From positions 1 through 61,041 of the forward strand of contig CANARN010000006.1 of the NCBI GenBank assembly GCA_947364045.1: a DNA stretch of 61,041 nucleotides, written 5' to 3'. This document shows positions 2,209 to 33,100 of this stretch, piece by piece. The notes below the pieces were generated by a model. That model ran no database searches, was not told where the DNA came from, and worked only from the letters and a program-made list of their open reading frames with translations. Source of the DNA: an uncultured Clostridia bacterium (lineage in GTDB: Bacteria; Bacillota; Clostridia; Oscillospirales; Acutalibacteraceae). The position numbers were made by a program, and so were the translations under genes. Position 1 is the first letter of the stretch; every line of letters begins with the position of its first letter.

Positions 2209-3249
2209 ATGAGCGTTACTAAAACTGTATTCGGCGAAACAAAAAACGGTGAAAGAGTCGACTCTTTTCTTATTGAAAATAAAAACGGCGTAAAAATTAA
2301 CTGCATTACCTTCGGCGCGGCGCTTCAAGCGGCTTATATTAAAGACAAAGACGGCAAGGAAATTGACGTTTTGGTTGGCTTTGACGATATGGACGGCTTT
2401 GAGAACCGCCATGACTATCAAGGTCTTGTTGTAGGTCCTGTTGCAAACAGAATTTCAGCAGGCGGAATAACAATTGACGGCAAAAAAATTCCCGTTACAA
2501 AAACGCACGGCGAAGTGTGCCTGCACAGCAACGGCGATTTTGCAACTGCTGTTTGGAACGCAGTAATCACAGATACCTCTTCCGTTGAGTTTTCTTATTT
2601 AAGCCCCGACGGCAAGGAAGGCTTTCCGGGAAATACTCTTACAAAGGTAAAATATACGCTTACAGATGACAATGAAATTAAAATTGAATACGACGCTGTT
2701 TCCGATAAAAAAACAGCTCTTAACATTACAAACCACGCTTATTTTAATCTTAAGGGCGTAGACAGCGGAGATATTCTTGACCATACGCTTTACATCAACG
2801 CGGACGCATTCACCCCTATGGGCGACGGACTTATGCCGACGGGCGAAATCCGCAGCGTAACAGGCACTCCCTTTGACTTCAGAGAGCCGAAGCAAATCGG
2901 CAGAGATATAACCGTTGACGATGAACAGTTACGGGCCGGCAACGGCTATGACCACAACTTTGCCCTCAACGATTATGACGGAAAAGTACGCCTTATCGCT
3001 ACAGCAGTTGCGCCGAACGGTGTAAAGCTTGACTGCTTTACAGATATGCCGGGCGTTCAGCTTTATGTTGGCAATTTCCTTGAAGGAAAGCTCGGAAAAC
3101 AGGGCAAGCCGATGGATTTCAGAACAGGCTTTTGCCTTGAAACTCAGTATTTTCCCAATGCTTCAAATATCCCTGAGTTTAAAAATTATGTTTTTGATGC
3201 AAACGAGCATTTCATTTCAACTACAATATATAAGCTTTCGCTGATTTAA
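2209..3249 (+). CDS. galM: aldose 1-epimerase (galactose mutarotase)
   Basis: 346 residues from the ATG at 2209, preceded by AAGGAG 8 bases upstream; a frame from GTG 2200 would overlap that site. Family features are visible: GPVANRISAG near 85, the NHAYFNL motif (catalytic His) near 180, GxGYDHNF near 248, and a late acidic residue in FCLETQYFPNA that fits the catalytic Glu. The enzyme interconverts alpha and beta anomers of sugars such as galactose and glucose in the cytoplasm. It stands alone behind its own promoter. Confidence 0.9.
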   Translation: MSVTKTVFGETKNGERVDSFLIENKNGVKINCITFGAALQAAYIKDKDGKEIDVLVGFDDMDGFENRHDYQGLVVGPVANRISAGGITIDGKKIPVTKTHGEVCLHSNGDFATAVWNAVITDTSSVEFSYLSPDGKEGFPGNTLTKVKYTLTDDNEIKIEYDAVSDKKTALNITNHAYFNLKGVDSGDILDHTLYINADAFTPMGDGLMPTGEIRSVTGTPFDFREPKQIGRDITVDDEQLRAGNGYDHNFALNDYDGKVRLIATAVAPNGVKLDCFTDMPGVQLYVGNFLEGKLGKQGKPMDFRTGFCLETQYFPNASNIPEFKNYVFDANEHFISTTIYKLSLI

Positions 3250-3350
3250 CGGTTTTATTATTTTTTCTCTTTCCCGTAACACAAATTCACCTTTCACATA
3301 AGATGTATTGAAGGTTACGAACATACTGCCTTTGGGAAGGAGGAAACATA

Positions 3351-3530
3351 ATGTCAAATTTCTTTGGAAATAACTCGTTGTTAATCCTCATTATCATCAT
3401 TATTCTTCTTTCTGATGGTAATTGCGGCTGCAACAACTGCTGCACACCTTGCTGCAATCCTTGCAACAATCGCAGAAATAACTGCGGCTGTGACTGCGGC
3501 TGTGATTGTGACTGCGGCTGTGGCTGCTAA
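3351..3530 (+). CDS. 59-residue cysteine-rich small protein
   Basis: ATG at 3351 follows an excellent AAGGAGG site; the gene ends with TAA at 3528-3530, just before a terminator. Residues 10-20 are a run of Leu and Ile (a likely short membrane or hydrophobic segment). From residue 25 to the end the protein holds 15 cysteines, first as CC pairs (CGCNNCC, PCCNPC), then as a strict alternation of Cys with Gly or Asp. This layout is seen in small clostridial proteins sometimes annotated as chorion-like high-cysteine proteins and in small sporulation proteins; the function is unknown. Possible roles are metal binding or a cross-linked coat or envelope component, but neither is shown. The alternating Cys tail is coded by a repetitive TGCGGCTGTGAC-type stretch. 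Confidence 0.8.
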   Translation: MSNFFGNNSLLILIIIIILLSDGNCGCNNCCTPCCNPCNNRRNNCGCDCGCDCDCGCGC

Positions 3531-3552
3531 TCACAAGAATTTCAAAAAAGCG

Positions 3553-3581
3553 GGCGGGTGAAAATCCCGCCTGTGTTTTTT
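3553..3581 (+). terminator. intrinsic terminator after the cysteine-rich gene
   Basis: GGCGGG at 3553-3558 pairs with CCCGCC at 3566-3571, followed by TGTGTTTTTT. Confidence 0.8.
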
Positions 3582-3600
3582 AGGAGTATATTTTAAAAAT

Positions 3601-4848
3601 ATGGAATTTTACGAAATAAATAACAAGCCTGAAAAAGCCTTGCTTCTGTCAGTTGACACCGGCGAATTTGATGCTGAAAGCTCAATTGCGGAGCTTGCGC
3701 TGTTAGCGGAGAGCGCAGGCGCTGAAGTTGTAGGTGAAATTCTGCAAAAAAGAGAAGCGCCGAACGGAGCATCGTATATCGGCGCAGGAAAGCTTGCCGA
3801 AGCAGAGCTTTATTGCAGCAATCAAAATGTTGATGTGATTATCTGTGATGCAGAGCTTACCCCCTCGCAGATAAGAAATATTGAAAATCACACTAACGTC
3901 AGGGTTATTGACCGCACTCAGCTTATTCTTGACATTTTTGCTCTGAGAGCTAAAAGCCGAGAGGGCAAATTGCAGGTGGAGCTTGCACAGCTTAAATATG
4001 CTCTTCCGCGTCTTTCGGGCAAGGGCAAGGAAATGTCAAGACTCGGCGGCGGCATAGGCACAAGAGGACCGGGCGAAAGCAAATTGGAAAGCGACCGCCG
4101 TCACATTATGAGACGAATCAACGCCCTTTCGGCAGAGCTTCGGGAAATTGACCGCAGAAGAGGCTACCTTCGGGCAAGGCGAGAGAAAAACCGTGTAACG
4201 ACAGTCGCGCTTGTCGGGTACACAAATGCAGGTAAATCCACACTTATGAACGCATTGACAGATGCCGGAGTATTAGCTCAGGACAAGCTGTTCGCAACTC
4301 TTGACCCTACCTCACGAAAGCTTACTCTTCCTGACGGGAGGGCAGTAATGCTTATTGACACAGTAGGCTTTGTCAGCCGTCTGCCCCATGACCTTGTAAG
4401 TGCATTTAAATCGACTCTTGAGGAAGCGGCATTGGCAGATGTTATTTTAAACGTATGCGACGCTTCAGACCCGCATTGCTCCGAGCAAGCGGAAATTACA
4501 ACTGAAATACTTAAAGAGCTTGGGCAAAACGGCGACAATATTATAACCGTACTCAATAAGTGCGACAAAGCGGGCGATGTTTATAACCTTATTCCTTTCG
4601 GAAAGACTGTAATGATAAGCGCACTGCATCAGGTAAATTTCGATATGCTGCTCTCTGCCGTTGCAGACTGTCTAAAGGAAAAATGCACACGTGTTAAAAT
4701 GCTTATTCCCTTTTCCAAAGGCGCAATTTTAAATGATATACGAAGCAACGGAAAAATATATACAGAGGAATATACCGCTGACGGCACCAAAATTGATGCA
4801 GTAATGCCCGTCTCGCTTGCCGAAAAATATAAGGAATATATCCAATAA
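3601..4848 (+). CDS. hflX: ribosome-associated GTPase HflX
   Basis: 415 residues. The N-terminal HflX domain spans about 1-195 and includes the glycine-rich GGGIGTRGPGESKLE near 145-160. The G domain follows: P-loop GYTNAGKST near 206-214, switch II DTVGF near 255, and NKCD near 318. HflX binds the 50S subunit and splits stalled or stress-damaged 70S ribosomes; it can also act as an RNA helicase. The only Shine-Dalgarno candidate (AGGAG at 3582-3586) is 14 bases from the ATG, rather far, so the start is likely but not certain. The GNAT gene begins 2 bases after the stop and is probably translated from the same message. Confidence 0.92.
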   Translation: MEFYEINNKPEKALLLSVDTGEFDAESSIAELALLAESAGAEVVGEILQKREAPNGASYIGAGKLAEAELYCSNQNVDVIICDAELTPSQIRNIENHTNVRVIDRTQLILDIFALRAKSREGKLQVELAQLKYALPRLSGKGKEMSRLGGGIGTRGPGESKLESDRRHIMRRINALSAELREIDRRRGYLRARREKNRVTTVALVGYTNAGKSTLMNALTDAGVLAQDKLFATLDPTSRKLTLPDGRAVMLIDTVGFVSRLPHDLVSAFKSTLEEAALADVILNVCDASDPHCSEQAEITTEILKELGQNGDNIITVLNKCDKAGDVYNLIPFGKTVMISALHQVNFDMLLSAVADCLKEKCTRVKMLIPFSKGAILNDIRSNGKIYTEEYTADGTKIDAVMPVSLAEKYKEYIQ

Positions 4849-13685: not shown

Positions 13686-15902
13686 TTACTGTACCGTGTC
13701 ATCTGTCTTTGCCATACTGTGAATAAAGACATCTATTGCTATCGCGTCAAAGGCATCTACGGTGCCGTCCTTGTTAAAGTCGGCAAAGTCTATTTGCTCA
13801 GCAGTCAAGCTTCCGTGACCCAATACATAGCTTTTTACCATAGCATAATCGTTTGTATCAACCACACCGTCTCCGTTGGCATCGCCGCTGTTCTTTTCAG
13901 GGAGTACAACAATTTCAAATTCGGCAGTATAAACTCCGACGAAATTGTTTTTACCCATTACAGCTACTGTGGCTGTTCCTACTTCGGTATTGTCCATATA
14001 TTCAACTATATAATCAATGTCCTTTTGAAGAGCTTTTCCGTTATAGGTAAGTGTGATTTCGGGTTCTGCCTTACCGTCGCAAAGCACTTGGGGAGCAATT
14101 TTGCTTACTTCAACGCCGTCGTTAATGTCACGCTGAACGATTGCAAATTTGCAACAGCACGCGAACATACTGTAATTACCCTCACCCATAACAGTCGCAG
14201 TTGCAAGACCCGCGTCAATATTATCCTTAAAATATGTGCTGTAATCATTACCCTTTGTAAGCTCCTTGCCGCTCGCTTTAACCGTAAGCTCCGGCTCAAT
14301 GCTCTCGCCTGTATAAGTCTGATTGGGTATAGGCATTACCTGCAAGGTTGTTTTTTCTATATTATTTTTGGCTGCATATGAGTAAGCGTAGCACTCTTCG
14401 GTGGGACAAACAATTGTAAGGTTGTCACAGCCGTCAAACGCTGTGTCATCTATGCTCTCAATTTCATCGGAAATGTAGACAGTCTGAAGATTTGCGCAGT
14501 TTGCAAAGGCTCTTGCCTCAACCTTTTCGACGGAAGAACCGAGCATAACCGTTTCGAGTGACTCCATATTGTCAAATGCCTGCGCGGAAACTGTCGCCTT
14601 CTCCTGTGAGTCAGTATCCTGATACACAACATCGGTAAGATTTGTGCATCCGTCAAATGCAGTGCTTTCAATCGACATAACATTTGTAAGGTCTATTCTT
14701 TCAAGAGTTGAACAGTTGTTGAAAACAAGCGCTTCAAGATATTTAATTCTGCCGAAGGTCACATTTTTAAGGCTTGTGCAGTCCTTAAAGCATTCTTCGG
14801 GAAGAGAGTTAAATGAGGAATTGCGGTCAAAGCCGACTGTTGTAAGCTCTGTGCAGTGCCAGAAAGCTTTCTTGCCTATCTTCGTTACGCTTTTCGGAAT
14901 GAAAACGCTTTCAATGCCCATATTGTAAAAAGCAATTTCAGATATTTCCGAAACTCTGTCGGAAATTACAACGGTTTTAAGATTGCTTGAAAATTTAGAG
15001 CTGTTTATAAGGTCTGTTTTGTTTTTAATATAGCTTCCGTCAAAAATATCAAATTTCATTCCCATTATTACAACAGGACTTATGTAGAATCCGCCGAAAG
15101 CATTATAAAAATTGTCAACTGTTGACGGCATAATGTAAACATTGTTCTGTTTGCCTGACGGATATGCGTAAAGCTTTGTCATATCCTTGCTGTAAAGCAC
15201 ACCGTTTACCGAACAGTAATTCGGATTTCGGTAATCAACGGTAATCTTTTTTAAATCAGAACAGCAAAGCGCTATACTCTTTTCAGCGGCTGTGGTTGAC
15301 AGCTCTGCCGATTTTGCAAATACAGCCAATGAACCGCCGACCATATACTGAATAACTTTTTTAGAGGCTTCAGGATTAGGTAAATTTACATTCTTGCCGA
15401 GATGCAGAGAGGTGATTGCCGTGTATGTAAAGGCAGACGCACCGACATAGGTTACACTGTCGGAAAGAACGATGTCACCTGACAGCTCCGAACAAGCAAA
15501 TGCATAAGCGCCGATATATTGGAGAGCGGTAAGCTCATTTAAGTTTGTTACAGCAACATTGCTCAGTCCGAAAGCCATAAAGCCTATTTTCTTTACAGTT
15601 ACCGGAAGCGTTACATTACGGGAAGCATATTCATTTTCTGTCCCCTCAACCTTCACTCCTGTTACAGCGGTAAATGCGCCGTCATCAATAACCGTTACGG
15701 GCTTGCCGTTGTACGTGTCGGGAACAACAATGTCTGTCGCAGTACCTGCGTTACAGCGCACAAGAGTTGCTTCGTTGCCGACCTCTTTAAATTCAAAGGA
15801 GTAAGGTGTTTCGGCAAACACACCGATTGGCAGTGCAGACAGCAGAAGCACTGTACTGATAATTATTGCAAACGTCCTTTTAAATACATTAAATTGTTTC
15901 AT
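13686..15902 (-). CDS. secreted leucine-rich-repeat protein with type I dockerin
   Basis: 738 residues. A signal peptide spans about 1-30 (KRTFAIIISTVLLLSALPIGVFA). Residues ~60-510 hold BspA-type LRR_5 repeats, with recurring VTKIGKKAFWHCTEL and LKNVTFGR-like units. About 520-660 are two Ig-like or YDG-type repeats (DYSTYFKDNIDAGLATATV and DYIVEYMDNTEVGTATVAV). A dockerin begins at 673 with two calcium loops, DANGDGVVDTND and DFNKDGTVDAFD. Dockerins bind cohesins on scaffoldins or the cell surface. The start is supported by AAGGAGG 9 bases upstream and lies inside the end of the anti-sigma-like gene (14-base overlap), so the two are translationally coupled. No catalytic domain is seen; binding or adhesion is likely. 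Confidence 0.88.
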   Translation of the reverse strand: MKQFNVFKRTFAIIISTVLLLSALPIGVFAETPYSFEFKEVGNEATLVRCNAGTATDIVVPDTYNGKPVTVIDDGAFTAVTGVKVEGTENEYASRNVTLPVTVKKIGFMAFGLSNVAVTNLNELTALQYIGAYAFACSELSGDIVLSDSVTYVGASAFTYTAITSLHLGKNVNLPNPEASKKVIQYMVGGSLAVFAKSAELSTTAAEKSIALCCSDLKKITVDYRNPNYCSVNGVLYSKDMTKLYAYPSGKQNNVYIMPSTVDNFYNAFGGFYISPVVIMGMKFDIFDGSYIKNKTDLINSSKFSSNLKTVVISDRVSEISEIAFYNMGIESVFIPKSVTKIGKKAFWHCTELTTVGFDRNSSFNSLPEECFKDCTSLKNVTFGRIKYLEALVFNNCSTLERIDLTNVMSIESTAFDGCTNLTDVVYQDTDSQEKATVSAQAFDNMESLETVMLGSSVEKVEARAFANCANLQTVYISDEIESIDDTAFDGCDNLTIVCPTEECYAYSYAAKNNIEKTTLQVMPIPNQTYTGESIEPELTVKASGKELTKGNDYSTYFKDNIDAGLATATVMGEGNYSMFACCCKFAIVQRDINDGVEVSKIAPQVLCDGKAEPEITLTYNGKALQKDIDYIVEYMDNTEVGTATVAVMGKNNFVGVYTAEFEIVVLPEKNSGDANGDGVVDTNDYAMVKSYVLGHGSLTAEQIDFADFNKDGTVDAFDAIAIDVFIHSMAKTDDTVQ

Positions 15903-16965
15903 TTACTTGTTCCTCCTTAGTCATAACAAACGAAAACGAGCGTTCCTCATAGGCAACTGTTACTAACGCCTTATTCTCCAAATCCATAAAATTCTTCTCG
16001 ACGGTTATTTCACATTCCGAAATCGGAATGTTCTTTTCGCTGCCGTCGGAATAAACCGCCGTAACCCTAATTCCCGAAAAATCCATATTGTCAAAGGATT
16101 CGGTTTTAAAGCTGAACTCATCAGGGAAAGTACCGTAAATCGAGTTGAGAACTGCGCTGTTCTTTTCGGCATAAACCTTTACGTCATAAGAATAGGTTTT
16201 TTCCTGATAAGCTACGGTTACCTTGTAGCTTCCCACATCTTGCCCGAATTTTTTCGGAACTGAAACGGTACAGTCGTCAAGCGGTATTTGCTTTTCGGCT
16301 CCGTTACTGTATACTGCAAAAATCTGTAAGCCGTTTAAATCAAGCTCTTCGCCCAATTTATATTCCGTCTTCATTTTTTTGGAACGCACACCGTAAATTT
16401 TTTCGAGATAAACAGGCTTTTCCTTGTGTTTTGTTGTGGACTCCTGCAATAAATCGGGAAGATTTTCGGTTGTTGTTTCGGTAGTCAACTCTGTTGTATC
16501 AAGAGGTACTGTTGTTTCCGGCGCAGAAATTTCAGCAGTGCCGTCTTTTTTCGGGTCAAAATTTTCAATACTGAAAACAGAAGCTATTTTATTTGTTATT
16601 TTTTTGGCGACGGTTTGACCTGATTGAGTTTTCACAGAGCCTACTGCAAAAAGAATTACTGCCGAAGCGCAAATTACAGCGAGTTTTCTGTATCGGTCTT
16701 TTTGCAAGACGGATTTTCTCTGAATTCCCTTTACAAACCTTTCCTCCGAAAGCAGAGCTGTTAAATGCGGTCCCTGCTCAGCGCTTTCAAGCTCCAGCTC
16801 TTCAAGAGCATTTATACATTCGTCTATTAAATCGCAGTCGGCGCTGTCGCCTTTACTTAATTCTTCGTCAATTACGCAGTTTAAATATTCCTTCAATTCG
16901 TTTATTGCTTCACTGTCGTTAAAAATCTGCCTGAGTATTGCAGAATTCAAACTAAGCTTTTCCAT
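15889..16965 (-). CDS. anti-sigma-like membrane protein with two Ig-like (Big_3) ectodomains
   Basis: 358 residues from ATG 16965 (AAGGAGGG 8 bases upstream). Residues 1-94 are cytoplasmic, acidic and helical with no zinc-anti-sigma HxxxCxxC motif. One membrane segment spans 95-111. A Thr/Glu-rich linker (TTVPLDTTELTTETTTE) follows, then two repeats of about 75 residues each with the Big_3 pattern (LDLNGLQIFAVYSNGAEKQI; MDFSGIRVTAVYSDGSEKNI). The one-base gap to the sigma gene marks it as the likely membrane partner and inhibitor of that factor, with the Ig domains outside the cell as sensors or ligand binders. The inhibitory role is inference from gene order and topology. Confidence 0.75.
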   Translation of the reverse strand: MEKLSLNSAILRQIFNDSEAINELKEYLNCVIDEELSKGDSADCDLIDECINALEELELESAEQGPHLTALLSEERFVKGIQRKSVLQKDRYRKLAVICASAVILFAVGSVKTQSGQTVAKKITNKIASVFSIENFDPKKDGTAEISAPETTVPLDTTELTTETTTENLPDLLQESTTKHKEKPVYLEKIYGVRSKKMKTEYKLGEELDLNGLQIFAVYSNGAEKQIPLDDCTVSVPKKFGQDVGSYKVTVAYQEKTYSYDVKVYAEKNSAVLNSIYGTFPDEFSFKTESFDNMDFSGIRVTAVYSDGSEKNIPISECEITVEKNFMDLENKALVTVAYEERSFSFVMTKEEQVNETI

Positions 16966-16966
16966 C

Positions 16967-17515
16967 TCAAATCCCTCCTTCGCTTTGAGATTCAATAAAG
17001 TCTGTAAGTTTTTCTTTAATTTGTTTTCTCAGTCTTGAGCTTCGCTTGGCGGCGGCTGTCGGTGAGATCTCTAATTTTTCCGCGATTTCGGACAGCGGCA
17101 GTCGTTCTATGTATTTTAATCTGTAGAACTCTTTTTCCTGCTCGCTCAGTGTATTCAGCAGCTTTAGCGCCAGAGCGTCATAATCTGTATTTTCCGTTTC
17201 GAAAGGCAGGTCTTTTGACTGTAATTCTTCAGCTTCTTCTAAAGGAACCGTACGTTTAAGCGACCGTGCATAAGCTTCTACTGCGCGTTTAAGGAAATTG
17301 TCTGCGGTACGGTAAAGGTAGGCTCTCGGATTTTCAATATCCTCTCCCGAGAGCAATCGGTTGTAATAAACCAAAAACGCTTCCTGAACGCAATCCTCCG
17401 CTGAAAGCTTTGCATCGCCCATTCGGACATTGCAGTATTTAATTAAAGGTAAATAGCAACGGCTGTAAGCTTCTTTAAGCTTTTCGTCCGCCCGTTTTTT
17501 CACAGCGCTGTTCAA
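16967..17515 (-). CDS. ECF-type RNA polymerase sigma factor
   Basis: 182 residues from a TTG at 17515, chosen for the GGGAGGGGG site 6 bases upstream; ECF sigma factors have this length. Region 2 lies at about 15-75 (LSAEDCVQEAFLVYYNRL, then NPRAYLYRTADNFL) and region 4 at about 118-170 (LSEQEKEFYRLKYIERLPLSEIA..., then a helix-turn-helix). It leads a three-gene unit with the anti-sigma-like protein and the LRR-dockerin protein. I see no clear ECF autoregulatory promoter upstream. Confidence 0.88.
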   Translation of the reverse strand: MNSAVKKRADEKLKEAYSRCYLPLIKYCNVRMGDAKLSAEDCVQEAFLVYYNRLLSGEDIENPRAYLYRTADNFLKRAVEAYARSLKRTVPLEEAEELQSKDLPFETENTDYDALALKLLNTLSEQEKEFYRLKYIERLPLSEIAEKLEISPTAAAKRSSRLRKQIKEKLTDFIESQSEGGI

Positions 17516-30113: not shown

Positions 30114-33100
30114 TTACGGCAGCTTAACCGCGCCGTGTAAATACATATTAAGATAAACTGCATCCATTCCGTCAACTGCTCCGTCGCCGTTTATATCTGC
30201 ATTCGTCATCTGCTGTCCGTTCAAAGCGAAATTGCATTTAATATGTATCATAAGTAAATCGTAGTCATCGCGGTCAATATCACCGTCGAGGTCAATGTCT
30301 CCTATCAAAGACTTTCCGACAGATAAAGCAACATCCTGCTTCGTATCACCCGTCACATTTATCACCTTACGGTATAACTCGTGACCGTCACACTCGGCAA
30401 TTAAAATATATCCTCCGTTGTTTATTCCGTCAAACGAATATGACGTTTCATTTATTCCAACCGTCTTTTTGGTTATAAGACCGTTAGTGTAAAAATCATA
30501 AATCTTAATTGTTATGCTGTCGGCAAGCTCCGAAGCTTCAACAGATATATTTCCGTGAATACCCGCTCCCGTTTTCTGAGATTTATCAAGAATTACCGAG
30601 TACACGGGACTTTCATAGCTTTCAACTCCGTATTTGTTGACAGACTTAAATTTATAATCGGCAACAACACTTTCCGAAAGAGTCAGCGAATTACCTGAAA
30701 TTTCAGTCCAGCCTTTGCCGTTGTCATAAAAATAAGTAACCTCCTGACCGTCAGGGCTGAAGAAATTAAAGGTAATATCATCACCCGTACGAATTCCTAT
30801 CGTTCCATCAACAGTAACCTGAAGCACAGGCTTATTTCCGGGATTTAACGGGTCATAGAAATTGTCAACCGTAAGCAAATAGTTTGATGTTTTAAGGTTG
30901 TTGCCCGTAACAGTAATAAGGTATGTGCCGTTCTTAGACACAGTAATAAATTCTGCTCCCGTAATATCCTCACCGTTAAGGGTAACCGATTTAAGCCCTG
31001 CTTCGCCGTATTTGTAATCCAAATGAACCTTATATGGATTAACGGTAATATCGGTCATCTCCGGCGTTACCGTAACCTCGGGAACGACTGTATCTATCAT
31101 AACGATATAGCTGTCTGAGGGAGGACTCTTCGTACCCGCCGCATTAACAGCCATAAACTGATAATTGGCATTTATGTTATCGTAAAGCACAATCTGATTG
31201 CCTGTTGTAATTTCAGTCCAGCCGCTTCCGTCGTTATAGTAATATGTTACCCCTGAAAGCGAAGGCTCAAGAGTTGAAAAGCTAAAGGTCATATTTTCGC
31301 CTGTCCAGCGTTTAAATGTACCCTGAAACTCAACGCGGATAACCGGCATCTGACGGTCAATTTTAACCGAAACGGGAACAATGTCGCTTTCAAGATTCGA
31401 GTATGACACTGTCTTAAATTCAAGAATATGCTCGCCCTCATCGCCGAAGCTGATATTAGGCTCAGCCATTACCTTCCAATCGCCGCCGTCAACTCTGTAA
31501 AGATACTCGTAAATTCCGGAAAAGGCATAGGACGAAACGGAAACATTTACCGAGTCAGAGGTCCATACACCGTTTTCATACTCCTGCCCCTTGCTCACGG
31601 CATTTACCTCGATAGTAGGATTATCGCCGTCAATAACAAAGCCATCCGAACGGTAAACTGCAGATTCATTACCTGCCCTGTCGGTTGCCTTAACTTCAAC
31701 AACACCCTTGAAATTCGGTGAAAACTGCGGCTTGTCAAGCTCGTTATATGTTATCCATTCTTCTGAAACAGGAATACCGTTTTCATCAAGCAGGCGGTAT
31801 TCGACTTTTCCGACGCTTGCTATTCCTCGGTCCTCCGCAAAAACAGTAAGCTCAACAATTTCGTTAAAGAACAGTCCGTATTCCTCGCCTGTCAGCTCAC
31901 GCGCGTTTGTTCCTGTTGTTTTATGCTTTAAAACTATCCTGTTGATAACGGGCGGTTCACGGTCAATGTTATTTACCGTTTTAATAAGTGTTTTTGAAAG
32001 CCCGTTATTTGCCGTTACGGTAACCGAGTAGTCGCCGTTTTCGGTAACTAAAAACTCTGTATTGCCGTTAATATCCTCACCGTTAACTGTAATTGACTTT
32101 ATTCCCGACAGACCGATGCTTAAATTATCTATTTTTATCTTAAAATTCTGATTTGTTACGGTATTTATTTCTTTGTTAAGAACAAAGTACGGCGTAACAT
32201 TATCACGCTTTACAGTATATCCGTCGGTTTCGGCACTCTCAATATTTTCGCTGTTTACAGCTTTAAAATAATATACATCCTGTAAATTAGTATTCACGGT
32301 AAGAGTATTACCTGACAGTACCGTCCAGTTAGATTTACTCTCAGGTCTGTAATAATATTTCAGTCCGCCAAGCTCATTGGTGGCTGACAGCGTAAATGTA
32401 ATGTTGTTGGGAGTCCATTCGCCTGCATATCCGTTAGTATCAACCGAAACAACCGGTATTCCGTATACTATTACAGGGAAAGAGGTTTCCGCCGTTCTTC
32501 CCTCGTGAGTGTATGAAACAGTAATATTCTGCTCAACATTGTAAAGCGTCGGGTCAAAGTCCTCAGTATGAACTATGTAATCGGTAACCATTTCGGAGGG
32601 AGCGTTGGAATAGTTTGCTTTTACAGTAAGACCCTCAAGGTCAAGCTCTGTTTCACCCTCAAGATATTTGTATTTCGGCTCGGTAATTTCAATGCTTTCA
32701 ACAGCCTTTGACGCAAGTGTTATTGAGAATACCCCTCGATAGCTTCTTCCCGCTCTTGTTACTGAAAGTACAATATACTGCTCCGTGTCAAGTATATTCG
32801 GATTTATTTCGCCTACCGAGTAATCCGTAACCTCAACAGTCAAATCACTGTCCTGATACATTTCCGATGTATCGCCGTAATATTTCTCAATATCTGCCCT
32901 GTCATACGTCAGCTGAACACGAAGTCCCGTAAGGTCAAGCTCTGTTTCACCCTCAACATAATCGGTTTTTGTAGGCGCTGTAACAGTAATACTCTTGGGT
33001 TCTATCTCAACAGTATTTATTTTTTTGCTTGTTTGAACATAAGAGGTAAGATTACGCTTACCGTAAAGGTAAATGTTTGTTTCGCCTGAATTCAGCGCAG

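Follow-up and report, generated by a model that had tools for sequence, protein, structure and literature searches.

Three genes at the locus

The window considered here is the whole stretch of DNA that was analysed, 61,041 nucleotides (positions 1 to 61,041, contig CANARN010000006.1 of assembly GCA_947364045.1) from an uncultured Clostridia bacterium of the family Acutalibacteraceae. The element under study lies at positions 13,686 to 17,515 and consists of three genes, which encode an extracytoplasmic function (ECF) sigma factor, a single-pass membrane protein with two immunoglobulin-like (Ig) domains, and a leucine-rich repeat (LRR) protein with a C-terminal dockerin. It is likely that these genes form a self-contained circuit made up of an ECF sigma factor, a membrane anti-sigma factor without a zinc motif and a surface LRR protein, and that the output of the circuit is its own operon. 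The sequences point to this reading in three ways: the gene order is conserved, the sigma factor co-occurs with the N-terminal domain of the membrane protein, and the promoter is specific to the type of sigma factor. The features are as follows (lengths in amino acids, aa; residues are those of the membrane protein; pLDDT, predicted local distance difference test).

17639-17618, minus strand: terminator-like hairpin 5' of the operon promoter (z -3.9)
17568-17541, minus strand: predicted ECF-type promoter, with -35 TGTCAG (17568-17563), a 16-nt spacer and -10 GACTAC (17546-17541)
17515-16967, minus strand: ECF sigma factor, 182 aa, TTG start after GGGAGGGGG (Sigma70_r2, Sigma70_r4_2, TIGR02937)
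16965-15889, minus strand: single-pass membrane protein, putative anti-sigma factor, 358 aa (Big_3, predicted model, family gene order)
16965-16780, minus strand: N-terminal cytoplasmic helical domain, residues 1-62, putatively sigma-binding (motif (I)D.EL.KGD..DCDLID.C; no Pfam family)
16689-16630, minus strand: transmembrane helix, about residues 93-112 (hydrophobicity; helix 93-109 in the model)
16629-16573, minus strand: juxtamembrane helix, about residues 113-131, possibly amphipathic (helix 114-130 in the model, block pLDDT 52-57)
16407-15913, minus strand: two Ig-like (Big_3) ectodomains, about residues 187-266 and 272-351 (Pfam; beta folds in the model, block pLDDT mostly 85-92)
15902-13686, minus strand: LRR_5 (BspA-type) protein with a C-terminal dockerin, 738 aa (Pfam)
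13740-13886, minus strand: type I dockerin of the LRR protein (Dockerin_1)
13634-13603, minus strand: terminator-like hairpin at the end of the operon, both strands (z -7.1)

The three genes are all encoded on the minus strand. When the reading frames were rechecked, they were found where the sequence-only reading had placed them, with a 1-base gap and then a 14-base overlap. The sigma factor matched Sigma70_r4_2 (E 9.3e-9) and Sigma70_r2 (E 1.9e-6) of Pfam, and the sigma70-ECF profile TIGR02937 of NCBIfam (E 1e-19, 70.8 bits vs a cut-off of 42.9); a protein of 182 aa with regions 2 and 4 and this profile is an ECF sigma factor. The LRR protein matched LRR_5 (E 1.7e-48) and Dockerin_1 (E 1.1e-12). 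Its signal peptide was judged by eye, and the C-terminal side carries repeats that we take to be 'MBG-like'. Both hairpins folded more stably than all of 200 shuffled sequences, and the number of terminator-like sites in the scanned region was not above that of the shuffles (5 vs 4.6). Since the hairpins bracket the promoter and the last gene, the triad is probably one transcription unit.

Two types of the operon within the genus

The genome of this gut bacterium is a 2.0 Mb draft of 96.8% completeness. It contains one full paralogue of the Ig protein, on contig C31, which is likewise flanked by an ECF sigma gene and an LRR_5 gene. The sigma factors of the two triads are 38% identical and the Ig proteins 31%; LRR and C-terminal repeat blocks are common to the two LRR proteins. 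Relatives of the Ig protein were found in 19 of 39 genomes of the genus. The genus set comprised 23 loci (the window, the C31 copy and 21 fetched), 20 of which, from 17 genomes, belong to type A (window-like, 12 loci) or type B (C31-like, 8 loci). The order sigma-Ig-LRR was kept in 19 of these 20 loci; the other, L087, is truncated by the contig end. The remaining loci are L099 and L100, with a sigma factor and a longer Big_3 protein with no LRR gene next to it, and L101, with a sigma factor and a DUF4367 protein. The proposal that the three genes are one coupled unit was borne out by the second triad and by this conserved order, which together indicate that the triad is more than a chance arrangement.

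The two types differ at the end of the LRR protein. All 12 type A proteins show a dockerin-like end by eye (Pfam was run on the window protein only), and the frame is broken in genome G004 (L081). The C31 protein (P0006, 1400 aa) gave no dockerin match in Pfam and ends with IPNTD followed by a hydrophobic and basic tail, by eye a sorting-like signal; three sortase matches occur in the same genome. Such an end, IPNTD or IPKTG plus a hydrophobic and basic tail, was seen in 6 of the 7 complete type B proteins, and L098 has an amphipathic-looking tail instead. Because the tails of types A and B differ, the mode of surface retention seems to vary while the LRR part persists. The LRR protein is probably displayed on the cell surface, and seems to be the chief product of the operon.

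Within the membrane protein, the mean identity was 67% for the second Ig domain, 56% for the first and 50% for the N-terminal domain; the corresponding values were 66% for the LRR core, 64% for the sigma factor and 47% for the dockerin (broken L081 LRR protein excluded). Conservation within the membrane protein thus peaks in the second (outer) Ig domain, at a level on a par with the LRR core and the sigma factor.

The N-terminal domain of the membrane protein and its coupling to the sigma factor

The Pfam analysis of the membrane protein revealed Big_3 in two stretches (E 1.7e-16), and no match before residue 196 (E up to 1). Across 23 rows of the N-terminal domain, residues D33, E35 and D48 are invariant, with DCDLID as the core. 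No Pfam family matched more than 3 of these 23 members (E up to 1); the strongest match of any one member was to ARM_5 (E 9e-5), and a sequence search of solved structures returned one weak match (E 0.24). The models of this domain show a helical hairpin composed of helices 8-37 (or 8-14 plus 18-37) and 44-62, with block pLDDT of 77-90 for residues 21-60. Short helices are predicted before the membrane at residues 66-72 and 75-87, and a low-confidence linker separates helix 114-130 from the two Ig folds. For the predicted helices before the membrane taken together, the mean pLDDT is only 65. The Ig domains are modelled with good confidence, the hairpin core with fair confidence and the remainder with low confidence. 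The juxtamembrane segment of the window protein has a helical moment of 0.50 vs 0.35 in shuffled sequences (fraction 0.06); over 64 proteins the mean was 0.49 vs 0.34, and the fraction was below 0.05 in 26 of the 64, so that the segment looks amphipathic in many members. As the sequence-only reading had said, the zinc motif Hx3Cx2C is missing from the N-terminal domain of the window protein, which was read by eye, and a zinc anti-sigma factor was rejected on this ground. A phage origin was also rejected, as the Ig protein had no tblastn match among 50,697 phage records.

An alignment of the N-terminal domain (A4) matched 35 of 300 genomes of the family, three of them of the genus. Forty of the 61 family places outside the genus were targeted, mostly the best scoring ones, and 18 others fell outside the sample. 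Each of the 40 targeted loci has an ECF sigma gene upstream of the domain gene and in the same orientation, with gaps of -62 to 293 bases. A scan of named genomes gave a sigma gene beside the domain in 20 of 20 loci, 12 of them on contigs already counted. Twelve further loci were fetched, of which 11 belong to other families within the order and the twelfth to the genus; a sigma gene was found in 10 of the 11 with room upstream, and one begins at a contig end. In L275 the sigma and domain frames overlap and the start is unsure, and in L271 (family 10) the gene of the N-terminal domain overlaps an LRR gene. At the class level, 6 of 391 genomes matched, including the genome of the window, most of the others weakly.

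Relatives that share only Big_3 served as a control, and none of the 29 had a sigma gene beside it (24 were assessable; 5 run off the start of the locus). Big_3 was consequently rejected as the defining part of the membrane protein. The comparison shows that the N-terminal domain, which belongs to no Pfam family, is what co-occurs with the sigma factor (40 of 40 family loci vs 0 of 24 controls), in keeping with the earlier view that the membrane protein goes with the sigma factor through its cytoplasmic part. The two Ig ectodomains that had been proposed were indeed found; however, they do not define the protein, since in the relatives scanned the same N-terminal domain is joined to Big_3, LRR_5, Flg_new repeats or DUF4367. 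The putative anti-sigma factor is encoded beside its ECF sigma factor, as an ECF anti-sigma factor would be.

The conserved order, which the earlier reading had asked to be sought in other genomes, recurs in six further genera: 11 of the 40 family loci, which come from g16, g19, g22, g35, g58 and g133, have the LRR gene directly next, no more than 333 bases away. In L112, a 471-aa gene (2692-4107, plus strand) is inserted between the sigma/sensor pair and the LRR gene. The putative anti-sigma factor of L102 (4845-9080, minus strand) is a 1411-aa protein with Listeria-Bacteroides (Flg_new) repeats outside, and its sigma factor groups with those of Eubacterium-named genomes. Three small frames, L131:7343-7561 (plus strand), L133:3226-3432 (minus strand) and L134:4315-4521 (plus strand), hold little beyond the N-terminal domain; in L133 and L134 the small frame sits 1.1-1.3 kb after a full operon. 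Frames of this size (68-72 aa) could be soluble relatives.

A second class of operons includes L118, L120, L123, L128-L132, L136, L139-L141, L101 and L282, where the sigma gene is followed by an N-terminal-domain protein of 250-300 aa and then by a secreted-looking protein of about 165-185 aa. The sensor of L101 has DUF4367; the sensor of L118 has no match over the cut-off. The third proteins had no Pfam match in the four tested. This class may be a parallel one-product switch.

A tree was built from 80 sigma factors and rooted at the midpoint, after removal of 12 duplicate contigs. It placed all 31 LRR-coupled pairs on one side of a branch (98/80), in a group of 47 rows, vs 0 of 33 on the opposite side. 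Of the loci in this group, 3 run into a contig edge and 13 have no LRR neighbour. The LRR label needs 8 changes on the tree vs 25 in shuffles. The type A sigma factors group with those of L103 and L105 of another genus, apart from type B, and the two types look like old paralogues.

The promoter and the extent of the regulon

The genus consensus 5' of the sigma gene is TGTYA[GT]-N16/17-SACTAC. Two versions were distinguished among 19 aligned sites: all 11 type A sites have C, a 16-nt spacer and G, whereas all 8 type B sites have T, a 17-nt spacer and C. The site of L089, excluded from the alignment due to an extended frame, was located by the promoter model at 41.5 bits. The pattern was not matched at L099 and L101. 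Outside the genus, a looser pattern was matched upstream of the sigma gene in 10 of the 40 family loci.

In the genome of the window, the strict core occurs at two sites, both before the two triad operons. A promoter model built from the 19 operon promoters gave 55.6 and 49.2 bits for these operons and 13.1 for the next candidate, with 150 of 2312 first-look candidates scored. Genus-wide, the strict core was found at 29 sites in 39 genomes, and a reversed control pattern at 49. These 29 sites are 16 intact operon promoters, 2 remnants and 11 others. Ten of the 11 lie within reading frames, including one 474-aa gene that contains a site in each of two genomes, and the eleventh has no frame on its own strand within 300 bases; other targets in the genus were therefore rejected. 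An earlier loose pattern allowing 3 mismatches was uninformative (162 matches vs 99 in the control). In one remnant (L164 / L192, G003:C20), a shortened sigma gene runs in frame into the LRR gene and the Ig gene is gone; in the other (L189 / L193, G004:C26), the promoter and the LRR end are left. Both could represent decay or an assembly error.

The simplest reading of these data would be a regulon of one operon. The sequence-only reading had suggested a promoter shared with dockerin genes, and this did not hold: the core and, among the candidates scored, the model found only the promoters of the two operons in this genome, so the dockerin genes are probably not targets, and a dockerin regulon was rejected. 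Nor did the link to the dockerin itself stand, as the paralogue P0006 has none; this link is incidental. In this genome, dockerin was matched 13 times, with three of the matches overlapping in a single frame, and cohesin 4 times; cohesin is present in all 39 genus genomes. With its dockerin and the genomic cohesin, the LRR protein would count as a cellulosomal protein, the pairing being putative. Three of the cohesin matches fall in one 749-aa frame (G000:C3:51369-52460, minus strand), which could be a small scaffoldin-like protein able to hold this dockerin. A further dockerin in the window, at 30138-30302 on the minus strand, lies inside an open frame of 1654 aa.

The LRR protein as output or as partner

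Two readings of the LRR protein were compared, and the same observations bear on both. In the first, the protein is an output only, an adhesin or a binder, and the Ig domains alone sense an outside ligand or stress. In the second, the LRR protein is a ligand or co-sensor of the anti-sigma factor, which would make the triad a Gram-positive counterpart of FecA-FecR-FecI. In the sensors L104:5838-7871 and L111:5765-7867 (both minus strand), LRR_5 is fused after Big_3, which argues for a partner and against a mere output. Both loci have a further LRR gene downstream, and the L104 sensor also carries a dockerin. The tight and old linkage of the genes speaks for a partner, as does the matched conservation of the LRR core and the outer Ig domain; this unusual conservation of the outer Ig domain is less expected of an output. 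The position of the LRR gene at the end of an operon with an ECF-type promoter fits an output.

The size of the sensor was also considered. All 31 sensors with an LRR neighbour have 221-700 aa, whereas 10 of the 13 without one have 767-1411 aa (Mann-Whitney p 0.0009, 3 contig-edge loci dropped). That the LRR neighbour is missing mainly where the sensor is very large would suggest that the two complement each other, favouring a partner over an output. However, the tree reduces this pattern to 2-3 independent events, and once these are corrected for it is no longer significant. The boundary between large and small sensors was also chosen after the sizes had been seen; the link is thus suggestive only. 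The 13 assessable members of the LRR-bearing sigma group that lack an LRR neighbour count for an output and against a partner. Outside that group, relatives with short sensors do without an LRR protein, often with the secreted-looking protein of about 165-185 aa next to them, which has no LRR similarity; a third gene of this kind is easier to reconcile with an output.

On balance, the output-only reading is a serious possibility that still falls somewhat short of an even chance, and a ligand or co-sensor is possible, to be held tentatively. Besides being a product, the LRR protein may act as the partner of the anti-sigma factor outside the cell. The fullest form of this idea is a Gram-positive three-part module, in which an exported LRR_5 protein, produced only while the sigma factor is free, docks back at the surface, where the Ig ectodomain of the anti-sigma factor reads it. 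The operon would in this way sense its own product or the matter bound to it. In this module, the Pfam-absent N-terminal domain is combined with Ig, LRR, Flg_new-repeat or DUF4367 ectodomains in different anti-sigma factors. We consider this form rather doubtful.

A proposed circuit

The self-contained circuit could operate as follows. The N-terminal helical domain would hold the sigma factor at the membrane. By analogy with RsiV (PMC6066255) and RsgI (PMC12203970), an event outside, at the Ig domains, might make the juxtamembrane segment accessible to cleavage at site 1, as happens in RsiV, and intramembrane proteolysis by presumed proteases would then follow. The freed sigma factor would transcribe its own operon, whose one effector gene would give rise to the LRR_5 protein, retained at the surface by the dockerin in this case, and in relatives perhaps by C-terminal tails of other kinds. 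The loop would close if the LRR protein were the outside partner of the anti-sigma factor, which is the most speculative step.

Several observations weigh against this circuit. The anti-sigma function is deduced from gene order, topology and analogy, and the N-terminal domain matches no known anti-sigma family in Pfam. Neither type A nor type B occurs in 22 of the 39 genus genomes, some of them incomplete, and the unit therefore looks dispensable. No sigma gene adjoins the domain in three more listed family places (frames of 68-72 aa), in one unlisted frame at the edge of L104, or in L278. The promoter search, in a draft genome with the scored share of candidates given above, could overlook targets that share part of the motif.

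The membrane protein might instead be a co-activator or a membrane tether needed by the sigma factor, with no inhibitory role. The N-terminal domain would agree with this in belonging to no anti-sigma family, and the remnant L164, in which the Ig gene was lost along with the end of the sigma gene, fits either case; however, the gene order, the single-pass topology and the exchange of outside domains are those of anti-sigma factors, and such a role is very unlikely. Least probable of all is a SigI/RsgI-like polysaccharide sensor controlling cellulosome (dockerin) genes, for which the dockerin of the LRR protein and the dockerin and cohesin matches of the genome could be cited, but to which the ECF type of the sigma factor, the lack of a match to the RsgI N-terminal or carbohydrate-binding domains in the membrane protein, the absence of the promoter core elsewhere in the genome and the paralogous triad without a dockerin are all opposed.

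LRR_5 (BspA-type) proteins are common on gut bacteria, and to our knowledge how they are switched on is mostly unknown. The circuit proposed here would be a one-operon switch with a clear promoter and a candidate anti-sigma domain absent from Pfam. Two natural versions occur in one genome, and the differences between their promoters predict that they are insulated from each other. It also indicates that the presence of a dockerin on a neighbour does not by itself imply membership of a cellulosome regulon.

Comparison with known systems

In the open-licence PubMed Central articles searched, no description was found that pairs an ECF anti-sigma factor with LRR/BspA, an Ig-like domain or DUF4367; the 2021 ECF reclassification was not covered. 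The nearest analogues are compared by parts. Like RsiV and sigma-V of Bacillus subtilis (ECF30), the locus has an ECF sigma factor and a membrane anti-sigma factor. RsiV is described, in the part of the source consulted, as having protective amphipathic helices in a DUF4179 juxtamembrane switch (PMC6066255), and a helix is predicted right after the membrane helix here. Unlike RsiV, the protein in the window has another N-terminal domain, Ig ectodomains and an LRR protein as the third gene. DUF4179 was not matched in it in Pfam, and matched one relative weakly (L110, E 0.009, 16.8 bits vs a cut-off of 30.1). The membrane anti-sigma factor RsiP of sigma-P in Bacillus thuringiensis, as far as the portion consulted tells, is cut at site 1 by signal peptidase and answers beta-lactams (PMC8844934). 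It is alike in being a membrane anti-sigma factor that has no DUF4179, and differs in its answer to beta-lactams and in that no LRR partner is mentioned for it in that portion.

For SigI and RsgI of Clostridium thermocellum, the excerpt used states that RsgI ectodomains bind substrates and that the targets are cellulosome genes (PMC12203970). Shared with the present locus is a membrane anti-sigma factor whose sensor domain lies outside the cell, in a clostridium that has cohesins and dockerins. However, SigI forms its own sigma group and is not of the ECF type, and the apparent target here is the own operon. The RsgI family was not matched in the membrane protein in Pfam (E up to 1), and with the ECF profiles this agrees with the initial suggestion of a different architecture.

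The class I anti-sigma domains (ASDI) of RseA, RskA, RsiW and ChrR resemble the N-terminal domain in being cytoplasmic helical domains before a membrane helix. According to the section of the source available to us, about 44% of ASDIs have no zinc motif and about 56% have Hx3Cx2C (PMC7406223). The ASDI fold is defined by four helices, a three-helix bundle plus a separate fourth helix. The domain here differs in matching no known anti-sigma Pfam family and in having no Hx3Cx2C, and it is likened to the ASDI by topology, not by fold.

The FecI-FecR-FecA system is a three-part surface signalling system, in which FecA is an outer-membrane transporter of Gram-negative bacteria. As in that system, a sigma factor, a membrane regulator and a surface protein are encoded together at the present locus; whereas the surface protein here is an LRR_5 protein in a Gram-positive bacterium, and its signalling role is putative.

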